Assembly: GCF_030734285.1 (NCBI RefSeq) | Contig: NZ_CP132294.1 | Coordinates: 1,302,001-1,366,000, forward strand | Origin: Natronococcus sp. AD-5 | GTDB taxonomy: Archaea; Halobacteriota; Halobacteria; Halobacteriales; Natrialbaceae | Length of the DNA: 64,000 nt | Direction of reading: 5' to 3' | Shown here: positions 21,676 to 25,852 of the stretch, piece after piece | Position numbering within the stretch: position 1 is the first letter of the stretch | Layout: every line of letters starts with the position of its first letter | The notes under the pieces: model-generated | What the model was told of the DNA's origin: nothing | The model's input: the letters and a program-made list of their open reading frames with translations, nothing else | Databases searched by the model: none | Position numbers and translations under genes: made by a program

Positions 21676-23487
21676 CTATTGTGACTGCAACGAGTACAAC
21701 GACGAGTACGTACTCGAGTTCGACAGCAACTCCTCGTGCGGCCCGGATTCCACGATTTCACCGCCTTCCATCGTATAGATCCGGTCGGCGTTAGTCACCG
21801 TCGAGAGCCGATGTGCGATCACCAGCATCGCGTAGTCTCGGTCCATCGATTCGATCCCTTCGTGAACCCGTCGTTCGAGGGCCGTATCCAGATCGCTCGT
21901 CGCTTCGTCCAAGATCAGCAGGTCCGCCTCTTTCAACAGGGCGCGAGCGATCGCGACGCGCTGGCGTTGCCCGCCCGATAGTTTCACTCCCTGGTCGCCG
22001 AGTACGGTATCGTATCCGTCCGGCAACTCGGGAAGAAACTCGGTTATCTGCGCGATTTCACAGACTCGCTCGATCTCCGCTCGCGTCGCGTTTCGCTTCC
22101 CGACGGTTACGTTCCGTCGGAGCGTATCGTTGAAAATGTGGGGGTCCTGTCTGACGATACTTACTCGCGAACGCCACTGCTGAACGTCGAACTCGTCGAT
22201 CGGAACACCGTTCGCTCGAACGTCTCCGCGACCGGGTTCGTACATTCTCGCGAGTAACGACGCGATCGTCGACTTTCCCGCTCCCGACGGGCCGACGAAC
22301 GCGACGAATTCGTCCAGGTCGAGTTCGAACGAAACGTCGCGGAGCACCGTTTCGTCGTTCGAGTCGTAACGAAACCGGACGTCGTCGAACTCGACCCGAT
22401 CGATCGAAGCTGGCACCGGTCGGGATGCGTTCGTCGGCTCACGGCTTCGTTCGAGTTCGTCGATGAACCCCTGCGTACGAATGAGATGGGGGAGTCCGCT
22501 ATCGATACGGTAGAGGTACTTATTCAGGTTGCTGATCTTCGGCCCGAGTTTGAACATCGCGAACAGAAAGACACCGAGCTCAGCGAGAGTCATCGAAGAG
22601 AACGTTAGTGCGAGGTATATCAGGCCGAACACGGATACGGCCGTCATCAGCTGGTAATAATTCGTTATCGCCGAGTCGTTTCGTTCGACCCTGATGGAGT
22701 TCTTTTCGAACTGTTCCGCCGATTCGTTAAAACCGGCTTGAAGCTCGTCGGTCATTCCGAAGAGTTTTACCTCTCTCACGCCTTGGGTACCCGCCTGCGC
22801 TCGAGACTGAATCCCCTCTTTGGCAGCAGCCACCTTATCGCCGAGGGAGTAGCCGTCGTCGAGTACGTACTTGAACAGGATCGTCATGCCGCCGAGAAAC
22901 ACCGCAGCGATCACCGTCAAAAGCGGAGCGAGAAAGAGCGCGATAGCGAGGTATATGACGGCGAGTAATCCCTGTTCGATGGCCCGCAATGCGTGCATAA
23001 CCACACTCCCCGCGTACTCCGCCTGCGTGACGATCGCGTTCAGTATGTCGTCGGACCCCTCTCGATCGAAGTACGAAATCTCCGCCTCGAGCGCTTTGTT
23101 GAACGCCTCTTCTTGCAGGTATCTCACGTACTTCGTCTGGATCGCAGCCCCCAGCCATCCGACCAAGAACGACGCGGTGAATCGAACCGTCATGACCGCA
23201 GCAACGCCGGTCACCAGATACCCGAGCGTGAAGGGGATCCCCAGCGTTTCGTAGACCAGCAGGAACGTCTCGAGTAGCCCGTCGGCTTCTTCGGTCGGCG
23301 CGTCGGCCTGGGCGACCTCCACGATCGGCATGATGAAACTTAGCCCGACTCCCTCGAGCAGTGCTGCGACGACGCTCAACGCGATCACTGTGCTAGCGAT
23401 CGCCGGTTGAAACGTCGCCGCTCGATACAGGGCGCGTCCCTTTTCGCGCCACGTTCGGCCGGCGTCAGAGGTGTCAGTAGCGGACAT
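21676..23487 (-). CDS. ABC exporter, fused permease and ATPase (MsbA/PglK-like)
   Basis: A 603-residue half transporter. The first ~330 residues carry six membrane helices. The nucleotide-binding domain has Walker A GPSGAGKST, Q-loop SIVRQDPHIFND, signature LSGGQRQR, Walker B LLILDEATSDLD and the H-loop IAHRLST. It would work as a homodimer. Its place at the end of the glycan locus suggests it flips the finished lipid-linked glycan across the membrane, as PglK does in bacteria; export of another lipid is possible. Confidence 0.88.
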   Translation of the reverse strand: MSATDTSDAGRTWREKGRALYRAATFQPAIASTVIALSVVAALLEGVGLSFIMPIVEVAQADAPTEEADGLLETFLLVYETLGIPFTLGYLVTGVAAVMTVRFTASFLVGWLGAAIQTKYVRYLQEEAFNKALEAEISYFDREGSDDILNAIVTQAEYAGSVVMHALRAIEQGLLAVIYLAIALFLAPLLTVIAAVFLGGMTILFKYVLDDGYSLGDKVAAAKEGIQSRAQAGTQGVREVKLFGMTDELQAGFNESAEQFEKNSIRVERNDSAITNYYQLMTAVSVFGLIYLALTFSSMTLAELGVFLFAMFKLGPKISNLNKYLYRIDSGLPHLIRTQGFIDELERSREPTNASRPVPASIDRVEFDDVRFRYDSNDETVLRDVSFELDLDEFVAFVGPSGAGKSTIASLLARMYEPGRGDVRANGVPIDEFDVQQWRSRVSIVRQDPHIFNDTLRRNVTVGKRNATRAEIERVCEIAQITEFLPELPDGYDTVLGDQGVKLSGGQRQRVAIARALLKEADLLILDEATSDLDTALERRVHEGIESMDRDYAMLVIAHRLSTVTNADRIYTMEGGEIVESGPHEELLSNSSTYSSLYSLQSQ

Positions 23488-23913
23488 AGTAGAGGATGGA
23501 CCGACGGAGACGGTTTCTCGTTCTGTATCAGATCCCGGTATAAATTCTCGTCGTCCGTTTTGGCCGGAAACGCGCTGCTACACGATCGAATCGAGCAACA
23601 AAGCAGACTCCCTCGTGCGATCGTCGATCGAGGCTGCTCGGCTTCTCCGTTAGCCACGACGTATCTCCTGTAGTGACTTCCGTCATCCGTTATCGAATCT
23701 TGTATGATCTCGATACGTCTACTAACCGGTATTTCGGGGACGGAGCGGTGACGTAAGTTCAGGTGAAATGTTATCAGGGCGCCAAATAGCGTCGTCCTAC
23801 GAGCGACAGAACAACAGTCACCGGTGCTGGAAACTCACCGAAAACGAATGAGAGGGAGCCTTCGCCCTTCTAATCCGTTTATTCTGCCGAAACCGTTCTC
23901 CGGGTATAAGTGG

Positions 23914-23950
23914 CACCCTGTAATGAGGTGTGACCGGGCAGCGCGTCACA
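23914..23950. repeat. two mutually exclusive small hairpins
   Basis: CACC (23914-23917) can pair with GGTG (23927-23930), and TGTGAC (23929-23934) can pair with GTCACA (23945-23950). They share two bases, so only one full hairpin can form at a time. Seen directly; function unknown. Confidence 0.45.
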
Positions 23951-23959
23951 GCGAATGCA

Positions 23960-24004
23960 GGGAAGTGGACGTGCCCCTTTCCGATAGCGGGTGTGCCACT
24001 TCCC
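23960..24004. repeat. strong inverted repeat / hairpin in the leader
   Basis: GGGAAGTGG (23960-23968) is the perfect reverse complement of CCACTTCCC (23996-24004). Past a one-base bulge the stem continues for seven more pairs as RNA (23970-23976 with 23989-23995, three of them G-U). The loop is 12 nt. It is far stronger than expected by chance and points to a structured transcript or a protein-binding palindrome. Confidence 0.7.
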
Positions 24005-24019
24005 GTGATGACCAAACGT

Positions 24020-24062
24020 CGTTGTTGATCCTCCGCGTGTGATGCGTGGCCTGTGAACAACG
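24020..24062. repeat. start-proximal hairpin, copy 1
   Basis: CGTTGTT (24020-24026) pairs with AACAACG (24056-24062). Inside a symmetric 6/6 internal loop, CCGCG (24033-24037) pairs with CGTGG (24045-24049). The outer stem ends 5 nt before the ATG at 24068. A second copy lies at 24807-24886. Confidence 0.65.
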
Positions 24063-24067
24063 CAACA

Positions 24068-24472
24068 ATGAAACGTACAATCGCAATCACACTGACGGTA
24101 GCGATGCTCGGGAGCCTCATGCTTATGGGGTTCGCAGGAACGGTGGCGGCGCAAGATAACATCACCATCGAAACCGGCGACACTGGCGACGTGAACCAGA
24201 GTGCGGAACAGAACGCCGAGATAAACCAGCAGAACAACAACCAGCAGATCGGTACTGCCACCGCGACCGCGGCTAGTGCTGACGGCGCTAACCACAAGAA
24301 GCACGGCGGCAGTAGCGGAGGCGCAGCCGCTGCCGCTTCGGTGGACCAGGTTCAGGTAGTTGAGCAGAGCAACGACGCCGAGATCGACCAGGATATCGAC
24401 CAGGAAGGCGAATCTGGTGACAGCGGGATCAACATCGAAGTTCTATTAGGTCTCCTTCCACTTAACGGCTAA
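24068..24472 (+). CDS. small secreted Q/N-rich repeat protein (curlin-like)
   Basis: A 134-residue exported protein. Residues 1-28 form a Sec-type signal peptide ending GTVAA. The mature part is acidic and Q/N-rich, with two related repeats, NQSAEQNAEINQ (43-54) and EQSNDAEIDQ (99-108), spaced by an Ala/Ser/Gly-rich region containing NHKKHGG. The Q-x-N-x-Q rhythm recalls curlin-type amyloid repeats, but I recognise no named family. ATG at 24068 is preferred over the GTG at 24053 because it starts the signal peptide cleanly. Strong hairpins flank the gene on both sides, and a membrane-anchored protein rich in Ser/Val/Gln repeats is encoded downstream. A fibre or matrix subunit is an inference. 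Confidence 0.7.
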   Translation: MKRTIAITLTVAMLGSLMLMGFAGTVAAQDNITIETGDTGDVNQSAEQNAEINQQNNNQQIGTATATAASADGANHKKHGGSSGGAAAAASVDQVQVVEQSNDAEIDQDIDQEGESGDSGINIEVLLGLLPLNG

Positions 24473-24523
24473 AGGATAGATGTCGGGTATTAACAGCCAT
24501 CGATAACGGTTGTTAATATCCTT
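24472..24523 (+). terminator. stem-loop overlapping the stop codon
   Basis: Just after the stop, 24488-24498 pairs with 24508-24518 as an 11-bp stem (one G-U) with a 9-nt loop. AAGGATA (24472-24478) can also pair with TATCCTT (24517-24523). A T-rich tract follows. A 3'-end or stability element is likely. Confidence 0.5.
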
Positions 24524-24538
24524 TCTCCCTTGAGGAGT

Positions 24539-24596
24539 CAAAAATCGCTATTTTTGCCGGGTAAAATTCGCAATCAGCAAAACTCGTAGTTTTCTG
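24539..24596. repeat. two further A/T-rich hairpins
   Basis: CAAAAAT (24539-24545) pairs perfectly with ATTTTTG (24550-24556), and AAAACT (24579-24584) pairs with AGTTTT (24588-24593), extended by CAG/CTG around one bulge. Their T-runs make them plausible transcription terminators on either strand. Confidence 0.5.
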
Positions 24597-24806
24597 CGCC
24601 CTGCGCCTCCGGTAGATCGTCATCGGGTTTCGCCTGAAAGCGCACCGCGTGAGCGCCAGGAGCGCCAACAACAGTGCGAGAGCGTATCGCGCCACCGGTG
24701 AGCGCTCAACCGCCATTTCGGCGTACCGGCTCGATTCGGCTCGTGGTGGCGCCACAGCCCGCGAAAGGATTGAATCGCTGCCGGACGCCGCCGTTAGCGC
24801 TACCGT

Positions 24807-24886
24807 CGTTGTTGATCCACCGCGTGTGATGTGTGGACGCCGCCGGTGCCGCCGGGCGCGGGGACCACCGAAGCCTGTAAACAACG
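24807..24886. repeat. start-proximal hairpin, copy 2 with insertion
   Basis: 24807-24835 repeats the left part of copy 1 with two substitutions, and 24874-24886 repeats its right part with one. A GC-rich insertion of roughly 38 nt separates them. Both arms CGTTGTT and AACAACG are intact. In the inner stem CGTGG has become TGTGG, which keeps pairing (G-C to G-U). No gene with a signal peptide follows directly. Confidence 0.6.
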
Positions 24887-25231
24887 TTATCGCACGGGAT
24901 GCGAACCGTCCGCACGTACAACGGTTCTACAGCGGGCGATCGGCTCGGGGCCCGAGCCCGGCTCGATCGTGTTTCCGTCCTCCCTCGAGCGCTAGCTCCG
25001 CTCGCCGACCGCCGTCCGTCTCGGGGGCCATTTTCGTTGCCGCGGCCGCCGCGTCGTACCCCGCACTCGCACGGTAACCGTTGGCATCGTTCGAGACGAC
25101 GCCTTCCGTAGCGACCGCTGCAGCGGCGTTCGTGCGTTCGATTAGCGCTCGGGTACCACCGAAACGATTCCGGTGATTAAAGGCCGAATTCGCTGAGGAA
25201 CAGTGTAACAGAGGTGGGCACTGGCTCGCTG

Positions 25232-25852
25232 ATGCTAACAGAACCCGTCAATCGACGAATCGTAGTCGCGCTCGTGATCGGATTCGCGGTAGTAGTCATC
25301 GTCGCGGGAGCAGCGGCGATCGGTGCTTCCGACGAACCAGCGGGCGACGCGATCGACCGTAATAATTCATCCAACATGACTCAAACCGAATTTCCGTGGG
25401 GAACGGTGACCCACGAAACCGACCCTGATACTGGTACGACCCGCGTCGACGTGGCCGTCGAGACTGACGGTGGCGTCTCGGTCTCGGCGACGGCAGCACC
25501 CGGCGCGACCGCCGAACCGACCGACCCGGACGCCGAGACGGAACGATTCTCGTGGGGGACGGTAGCCTACGCGACCGATTCCGACACCGGCGTGACGGAC
25601 GTCGAAGTGATCGTCGACGCCGCGGACGACGTTTCGCTCGCAGTAACGACGGTCTCCGAGGACGGGAGCCAGGAGTCGACGTCAATCGTCACGTCCGCAG
25701 GTGAGGACGGCGGCGCGAGCGTTTCTCAGTCGACGAGCGTCTCGGGCTCATCGAGCACCGTCCAGTCGAACGCGAGCGTCTCGCAATCGACGACCGCGTC
25801 GACCGGCGAGTCGATCGAAATCGATATCGACGACGGCGACGAGGACGAGTAA
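25232..25852 (+). CDS. membrane-anchored surface protein with duplicated 34-residue motif
   Basis: A 206-residue protein. A membrane helix spans about residues 10-31, and the remainder should be outside the cell. Residues 54-87 and 106-139 are a gap-free internal repeat with about half of the positions identical, each opening F-x-WGTV and containing T-D-x-D-T-G. A Ser/Val/Gln-rich tail follows (SVSQSTSV, ASVSQSTTAS), and the C-terminus is acidic. GTG at 25214 is an alternative start. I do not recognise the family. Its position after the curlin-like gene and its own SVSQS repeats suggest a shared surface role, which is inference. Confidence 0.68.
   Translation: MLTEPVNRRIVVALVIGFAVVVIVAGAAAIGASDEPAGDAIDRNNSSNMTQTEFPWGTVTHETDPDTGTTRVDVAVETDGGVSVSATAAPGATAEPTDPDAETERFSWGTVAYATDSDTGVTDVEVIVDAADDVSLAVTTVSEDGSQESTSIVTSAGEDGGASVSQSTSVSGSSSTVQSNASVSQSTTASTGESIEIDIDDGDEDE

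Follow-up and report, generated by a model that had tools for sequence, protein, structure and literature searches.

The window analysed here is a 64,000 nt stretch of the genome of Natronococcus sp. AD-5 (contig NZ_CP132294.1). It carries a gene for a small secreted protein, termed the subunit, which is preceded by a structured leader RNA, a putative promoter and a large cluster of polysaccharide genes. A second protein, which shares repeat logic with the subunit and is termed the companion, is encoded to the left of the window. The features are as follows:

88-23487, no strand assigned: exopolysaccharide/glycan cluster between the companion gene and the subunit; ABC exporter by Pfam, the rest read from sequence
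21676-23487: ABC exporter of the glycan cluster (Pfam)
23889-23911, plus strand: putative promoter region, with the conserved block GAAACCGTT and the TATA-like GGGTATAAGT (23902-23911), common to subunit genes across genera
23932-24070, plus strand: structured 5' leader RNA that runs from the putative transcription start to the ATG (covariance model R1)
23936-23950, plus strand: 5' arm of the conserved closing stem, with one bulged base at 23941
23960-24004, plus strand: internal 9-bp hairpin in the variable middle of the leader, not conserved in paralogs
24038-24051, plus strand: 3' arm of the closing stem, with its end 16 nt upstream of the ATG
24068-24472, plus strand: subunit ORF, 134 aa, secreted Q/N-ladder protein
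24068-24151, plus strand: signal peptide MKRTIAITLTVAMLGSLMLMGFAGTVAA, followed by QDN (alignment A3, conserved AxA site); putative cleavage site placed by eye
24215-24265, plus strand: ladder repeat 1, AEINQQNNNQQIGTATA (family alignment)
24335-24391, plus strand: ladder repeat 2, ASVDQVQVVEQSNDAEIDQ (family alignment), which includes NDAEIDQ
24485-24521, plus strand: 3'-UTR hairpin (24485-24498 with 24508-24521), common only to same-genome paralogs
24804-24886, plus strand: partial leader duplicate (33 nt at 94%, 14 nt at 93%) that is not followed by a subunit ORF
25214-25852, plus strand: WGTV/S-Q-rich protein, secreted or membrane-attached; similar proteins flank subunits in relatives, by eye

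The subunit, its companion and their neighbours

An earlier note on this DNA described a 134-aa exported, Q/N-rich protein with two related repeats, and this description stands. The subunit has a Sec-type export signal and a mature part of 106 residues, and its ladder residues are kept across relatives, a point that had been named beforehand as one on which the description might fail. Q54, N56, Q60, Q100 and N102 are invariant in 22 of 22 relatives, Q94 and Q96 are nearly so, and the 22-member alignment has 14 invariant columns. It is at the level of the family that the repeats are evident; inside the single sequence they are not significant, as the best 17-aa self-match is equalled by 372 of 1000 shuffles. 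Two or more copies of the spacing Q-x-[NQ]-x3-Q are present in 67 of 78 mature subunits, versus one of 78 after shuffling. The signal peptide MKRTLTITLTVALIGSLMFMGFAGTAAAQ (alignment A3, residues 1-28) is unusual in that its cross-species conservation exceeds that of most of the mature protein.

A profile built from 22 relatives detects subunits in 97 of the 125 genomes of the taxonomic family to which AD-5 belongs, and tandem arrays are frequent. Named loci are in Natrialba, Natronorubrum, Natrinema, Natronococcus, Halovivax and others; beyond this taxonomic family, most occurrences are in a single further family of the order, f17. Three further paralogs, with 70-76% identity, are present in the two-contig, 5.17 Mb genome of Natronococcus sp. 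AD-5 itself. Neither Pfam nor NCBIfam offers a credible family for the 22 subunits, Pfam offers none for 17 companions, and a sequence search of the PDB with both profiles gave nothing relevant. No earlier report of the subunit family was found in a literature search that reached few subscription papers and no bioRxiv preprints, which makes it weak evidence of novelty.

The companion is a protein of ~530 aa (about 500-540), encoded next to subunits in relatives and transcribed divergently from them. Each of its five modules has two long ladders of the kind seen in the subunit, e.g. AEVTQYQDVDQVNINQQ and ATAIQEASQYNDNDQ, and the companion profile matches that of the subunit (probability 91.5%, E 8.6e-7). 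Companions are present in 99 of the 125 genomes. Comparison of the two family listings gives both partners in 96 genomes, the companion alone in three, the subunit alone in one and neither in 25, with part of these joint absences deduced from totals. Joint absence is seen within several genera that otherwise have both. The pair usually lies head to head, 0.5-0.8 kb apart, as read by hand from both listings. In Natronococcus sp. AD-5 the companion gene (G000:C1:1296671-1298254, minus strand) and the subunit are 28 kb apart and still divergent.

Between the two lies the exopolysaccharide cluster, with a nucleotidyltransferase, epimerases, glycosyltransferases, a sugar transferase and the ABC exporter. 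Such a cluster is found between subunit and companion in six genomes, i.e. this one and five others; it is almost entire in G017 and G070 and represented by its core genes in G028, G069 and G139. A transposase-like gene (G000:C1:1299758-1300855; L115:11759-12856) is situated between the companion and the cluster, left of the window. Downstream of the subunit, larC and then cdc48 follow in the window and in many relatives, both named by sequence recognition. The product of 25214-25852 has two WGTV..D.DTG.T units and a tail rich in S and Q; as judged by eye, it resembles the product of L051 6570-7226 and, less clearly, those at L018 and L040. It is a possible third component of the system.

Do these proteins form stacked beta solenoids, as the earlier note suggested might be sought by structure prediction? 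The answer differs for the two partners. The AlphaFold model of the subunit is of low confidence (pLDDT 47), too low for its Foldseek rows to be considered. The companion is modelled with long strands in five modules (pLDDT about 70-82) joined by disordered linkers. Foldseek gave no significant match for this model; the top two PDB rows are CsgA (E 0.42) and FapC (E 3.1), neither of them significant. A second aligner gave Z 9.3 to the SufB/SufD beta-helices, Z 6.5 to CsgA (rmsd 8.5 A) and Z 2.5 to FapC. Values of Z 7-9 are frequent between unrelated folds. The predicted model is read as a beta-solenoid-like architecture, and not as evidence of family membership.

The proposal of an archaeal fibre or matrix subunit gains from the family conservation, the repeat-sharing companion, the exopolysaccharide linkage and the companion's predicted beta strands, but the curlin-type label that came with it does not hold. 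An alternative is that the subunit does not polymerise at all: it may be a low-complexity protein, adapted to salt and secreted as a coat or to bind polysaccharide, with ladders that contact glycans or protect against drying. The linkage to the polysaccharide cluster, the low-confidence monomer fold and the lack of a match to any amyloid family would all suit such a protein. The strict spacing of the ladder residues and the companion's predicted long strands, however, go beyond what mere composition would give, and this alternative appears rather unlikely.

The putative leader RNA

Many subunit upstream regions share the promoter block GAAACCGTTxTYCGGGTTCAAGT (or TATAAGT). The GAAACCGTT part, which lies some 13 nt upstream of the TATA-like box in subunit genes, may be a regulator site common to the family. 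Since the distance to the TATA-like box is fixed, transcription is predicted to start at about 23932.

A conserved 14-bp stem joins the two ends of the leader (23936-23950 with 24038-24051). Counted from the start of the TATA-like box, its arm RAYYGGGCAACGCGTCACA begins after about 30 nt, and in most cases the complementary arm TGTGATGCGTGCC lies 10-25 nt upstream of the ATG. The arms are separated by a variable stretch of about 20-88 nt that holds other hairpins. The fold of the window leader is more stable than those of its dinucleotide shuffles (z -3.4, with 0 of 200 as good), and when folded from the predicted start the leader reaches z -4.9. Of 47 leaders, 43 have a minimum-energy fold in which ten or more pairs join the 5' end to the 3' end; the mean is 16.4 closing pairs versus 5.8 in shuffled sequences, and the mean z is -2.9.

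The closing stem is supported by compensatory change across species. RNAalifold recovered 13 of the 14 stem pairs from 20 leaders, and no other helix. In the alignment of these 20, 94.3% of cells are paired and seven of the 14 pairs have changed on both sides, values reached by 0 of 500 shuffles, although the counts overstate independence because the sequences are related and each arm was selected for its resemblance to a complementary consensus. Slid controls on the same alignment are 22-61% paired. An alignment of 32 leader arm pairs agrees, less strongly.

This is not the structure to which attention had been drawn initially. The two leader stems named in the earlier note are present as described: GGGAAGTGG (23960-23968) pairs with CCACTTCCC (23996-24004) and can be extended past a bulged A, and CGTTGTT (24020-24026) pairs with AACAACG (24056-24062), ending 5 nt before the ATG. 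Both are in non-conserved parts of the leader. Where the note called for folding and covariation in orthologous leaders, it is the different, 14-bp stem that covaries, and the named stems are mostly confined to the window. The suggestion of post-transcriptional control through a structured leader is nonetheless made plausible by the conserved stem. A stem next to the stop codon is also present as had been stated, but it is limited to same-genome paralogs. The 3' region of the window folds more weakly (z -2.0), and a 3' hairpin as a feature of the family was ruled out, with a mean z of -0.30 over 77 3' regions.

How closely is the leader tied to the subunit? A covariance model of the 20 leaders (R1) has 66 matches at E 0.01 or better, training sequences included, in 51 of the 125 genomes and in 17 genera; the other 46 subunit-bearing genomes are without a match at E 0.01. 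The window, itself one of the training sequences, scores 81.3 bits. Sixty-two of the 66 matches end on the start of a listed subunit. Three of the remaining four precede MKR-type secreted proteins with Q/N-containing mature parts, so that 65 matches are directly upstream of subunit-like genes. The last one (G020, L128) has no ORF behind it and, like the partial leader copy at 24804-24886, which is a probable relic of a tandem subunit copy, probably remains from a tandem gene. The exact two-arm pattern gives 15 matches in 15 genomes, and its reversed control none. The 5' arm alone was rejected as a search pattern in the AD-5 genome; it is unspecific, with matches of the same order as its reversed control. 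The 5'-arm core was not found in viral contigs, and a search of Rfam with 23400-25300 returned sub-threshold rows only, with nothing above the gathering score. By these comparisons of sequence, the leader apparently constitutes a new structured 5'-UTR family in haloarchaea.

The main rival for the leader is that its arms are half-sites of a DNA operator, bound by a regulator, and do not form an RNA stem. Both arms are strongly conserved and are inverted copies of one motif, as an operator would require. However, they change together in several lineages, they lie 20-88 nt apart between the TATA-like box and the start codon, and the leaders fold better than shuffles. An operator is thus unlikely.

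A proposed two-component matrix system

The gene is probably that of a small exported subunit in a two-component, curli-like extracellular matrix system of haloarchaea, with a leader stem that would serve mRNA stability or translation. The two-component part is based on repeat logic, predicted strands and neighbourhood. The two ladder strands of a subunit would stack on each other and on the companion, which may act as anchor or nucleator, and the stacking would yield beta-rich fibres within a polysaccharide matrix. At the RNA level, the closing stem would start at or next to the 5' end of the mRNA and close about 16 nt before the start codon. It would shield the 5' end and leave the start codon in a short open stretch, and would most likely set the stability and translation of an mRNA for a presumably abundant secreted protein. 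By analogy with known leaders, a stability and translation element is the most likely role.

Some observations count against this interpretation. The subunit model is poor and the structural matches are weak, two ladders per subunit are few for a self-assembling amyloid, and some genomes have a single partner (three with the companion only, one with the subunit only).

A bolder proposal can be made tentatively. The locus may represent a new functional-amyloid system of archaea that does not share descent with curli or Fap, where the companion nucleates subunits in a co-encoded polysaccharide matrix and where a dedicated, undescribed RNA that closes the 5' end coordinates dispersed and tandem subunit genes.

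In Haloferax volcanii biofilms, staining by Congo red and thioflavin T is seen together with polysaccharide (PMC4180959). The gene behind this amyloid-like staining was not established; HVO_1403 was proposed, a candidate unrelated to the present family as far as that paper states (PMC4180959). Subunit and companion offer a genetically linked candidate pair for a haloarchaeal amyloid-like biofilm, present in many culturable species of a group related to H. volcanii and situated beside the polysaccharide genes with which the pair would work.

Comparison with known systems

The likeness to curli is one of design. As in curli (PMC10192328, PMC3521004), there is a small exported subunit with alternating amide/hydrophobic ladders. 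There is also a second repeat-bearing protein encoded nearby, as with the CsgA major and CsgB minor subunits, a matrix context, and a beta-solenoid-like architecture predicted for the companion. NDAEIDQ of ladder repeat 2 conforms to N-$-Psi-$-Psi-$-Q, the base signature of curlins (PMC10192328). The resemblance of the Q/N ladders to curlin subunits that had been pointed out thus holds at the level of motif logic only. In contrast to the tight 22-residue arches of curli, the ladders here are long, with 15-20 residues, and the companion exceeds the subunit several-fold in size.

Genome G035, of the same taxonomic family, encodes at L070:1303-2037 (minus strand) a secreted haloarchaeal protein of 245 aa in which the canonical curlin core (Q.G..N.A...Q) occurs ten times. 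This protein scores above the Pfam PF07012 cut-off; CsgG was not found in this taxonomic family (41 genomes, G035 not among them). A single archaeal protein with curli-like repeats had been noted earlier (PMC3521004).

The subunit and companion are not curli. That the subunit is a diverged CsgA/CsgB homologue is very improbable, for although its NxAxVDQ-type motifs fit the base signature (27 in 78 subunits versus 4.8 expected) and the L070 protein passes the Pfam curlin cut-off, PF07012 (Curlin_rpt) matches none of 22 subunits or 17 companions and nothing in the AD-5 genome even at E 10, the QXGXXNXA core is missing from all 78 subunits and all 17 companions searched, N.P.P.Q motifs in the companion are rarer than in shuffles, the profile match of the subunit with L070, CsgA and CsgB rests mainly on the signal peptide, and CsgG (PF03783) is absent from 41 of 41 genomes with a positive E. 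coli control.

FapC of the Fap system has few imperfect Q/N-rich repeats with variable linkers. The present proteins are similar in having few Q/N-rich repeats, and FapC (PDB 9u4u) is the second Foldseek row for the companion, but no match in sequence or structure is significant.

For the leader, there are precedents in bacteria and in haloarchaea. Stems at the 5' terminus protect bacterial mRNAs, e.g. E. coli ompA, whose stabilising stem is 5'-terminal, as is predicted for the one described here. In haloarchaea, translation can be set jointly by the 5' and 3' UTRs, and translational regulation needed stem loops in the 5' UTR, the feature shared with the present leader (PMC2636863). Most transcripts lack a leader in the best-studied haloarchaeal transcriptome; in Haloferax volcanii 72% of the protein-coding transcripts do so, and control by structured leaders has been judged atypical for haloarchaea (PMC4983044). 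Unlike both precedents, the subunit leader matches nothing in Rfam and has one closing stem, kept with compensatory changes across 17 genera and tied to one gene family, and it is against this background that it stands out.
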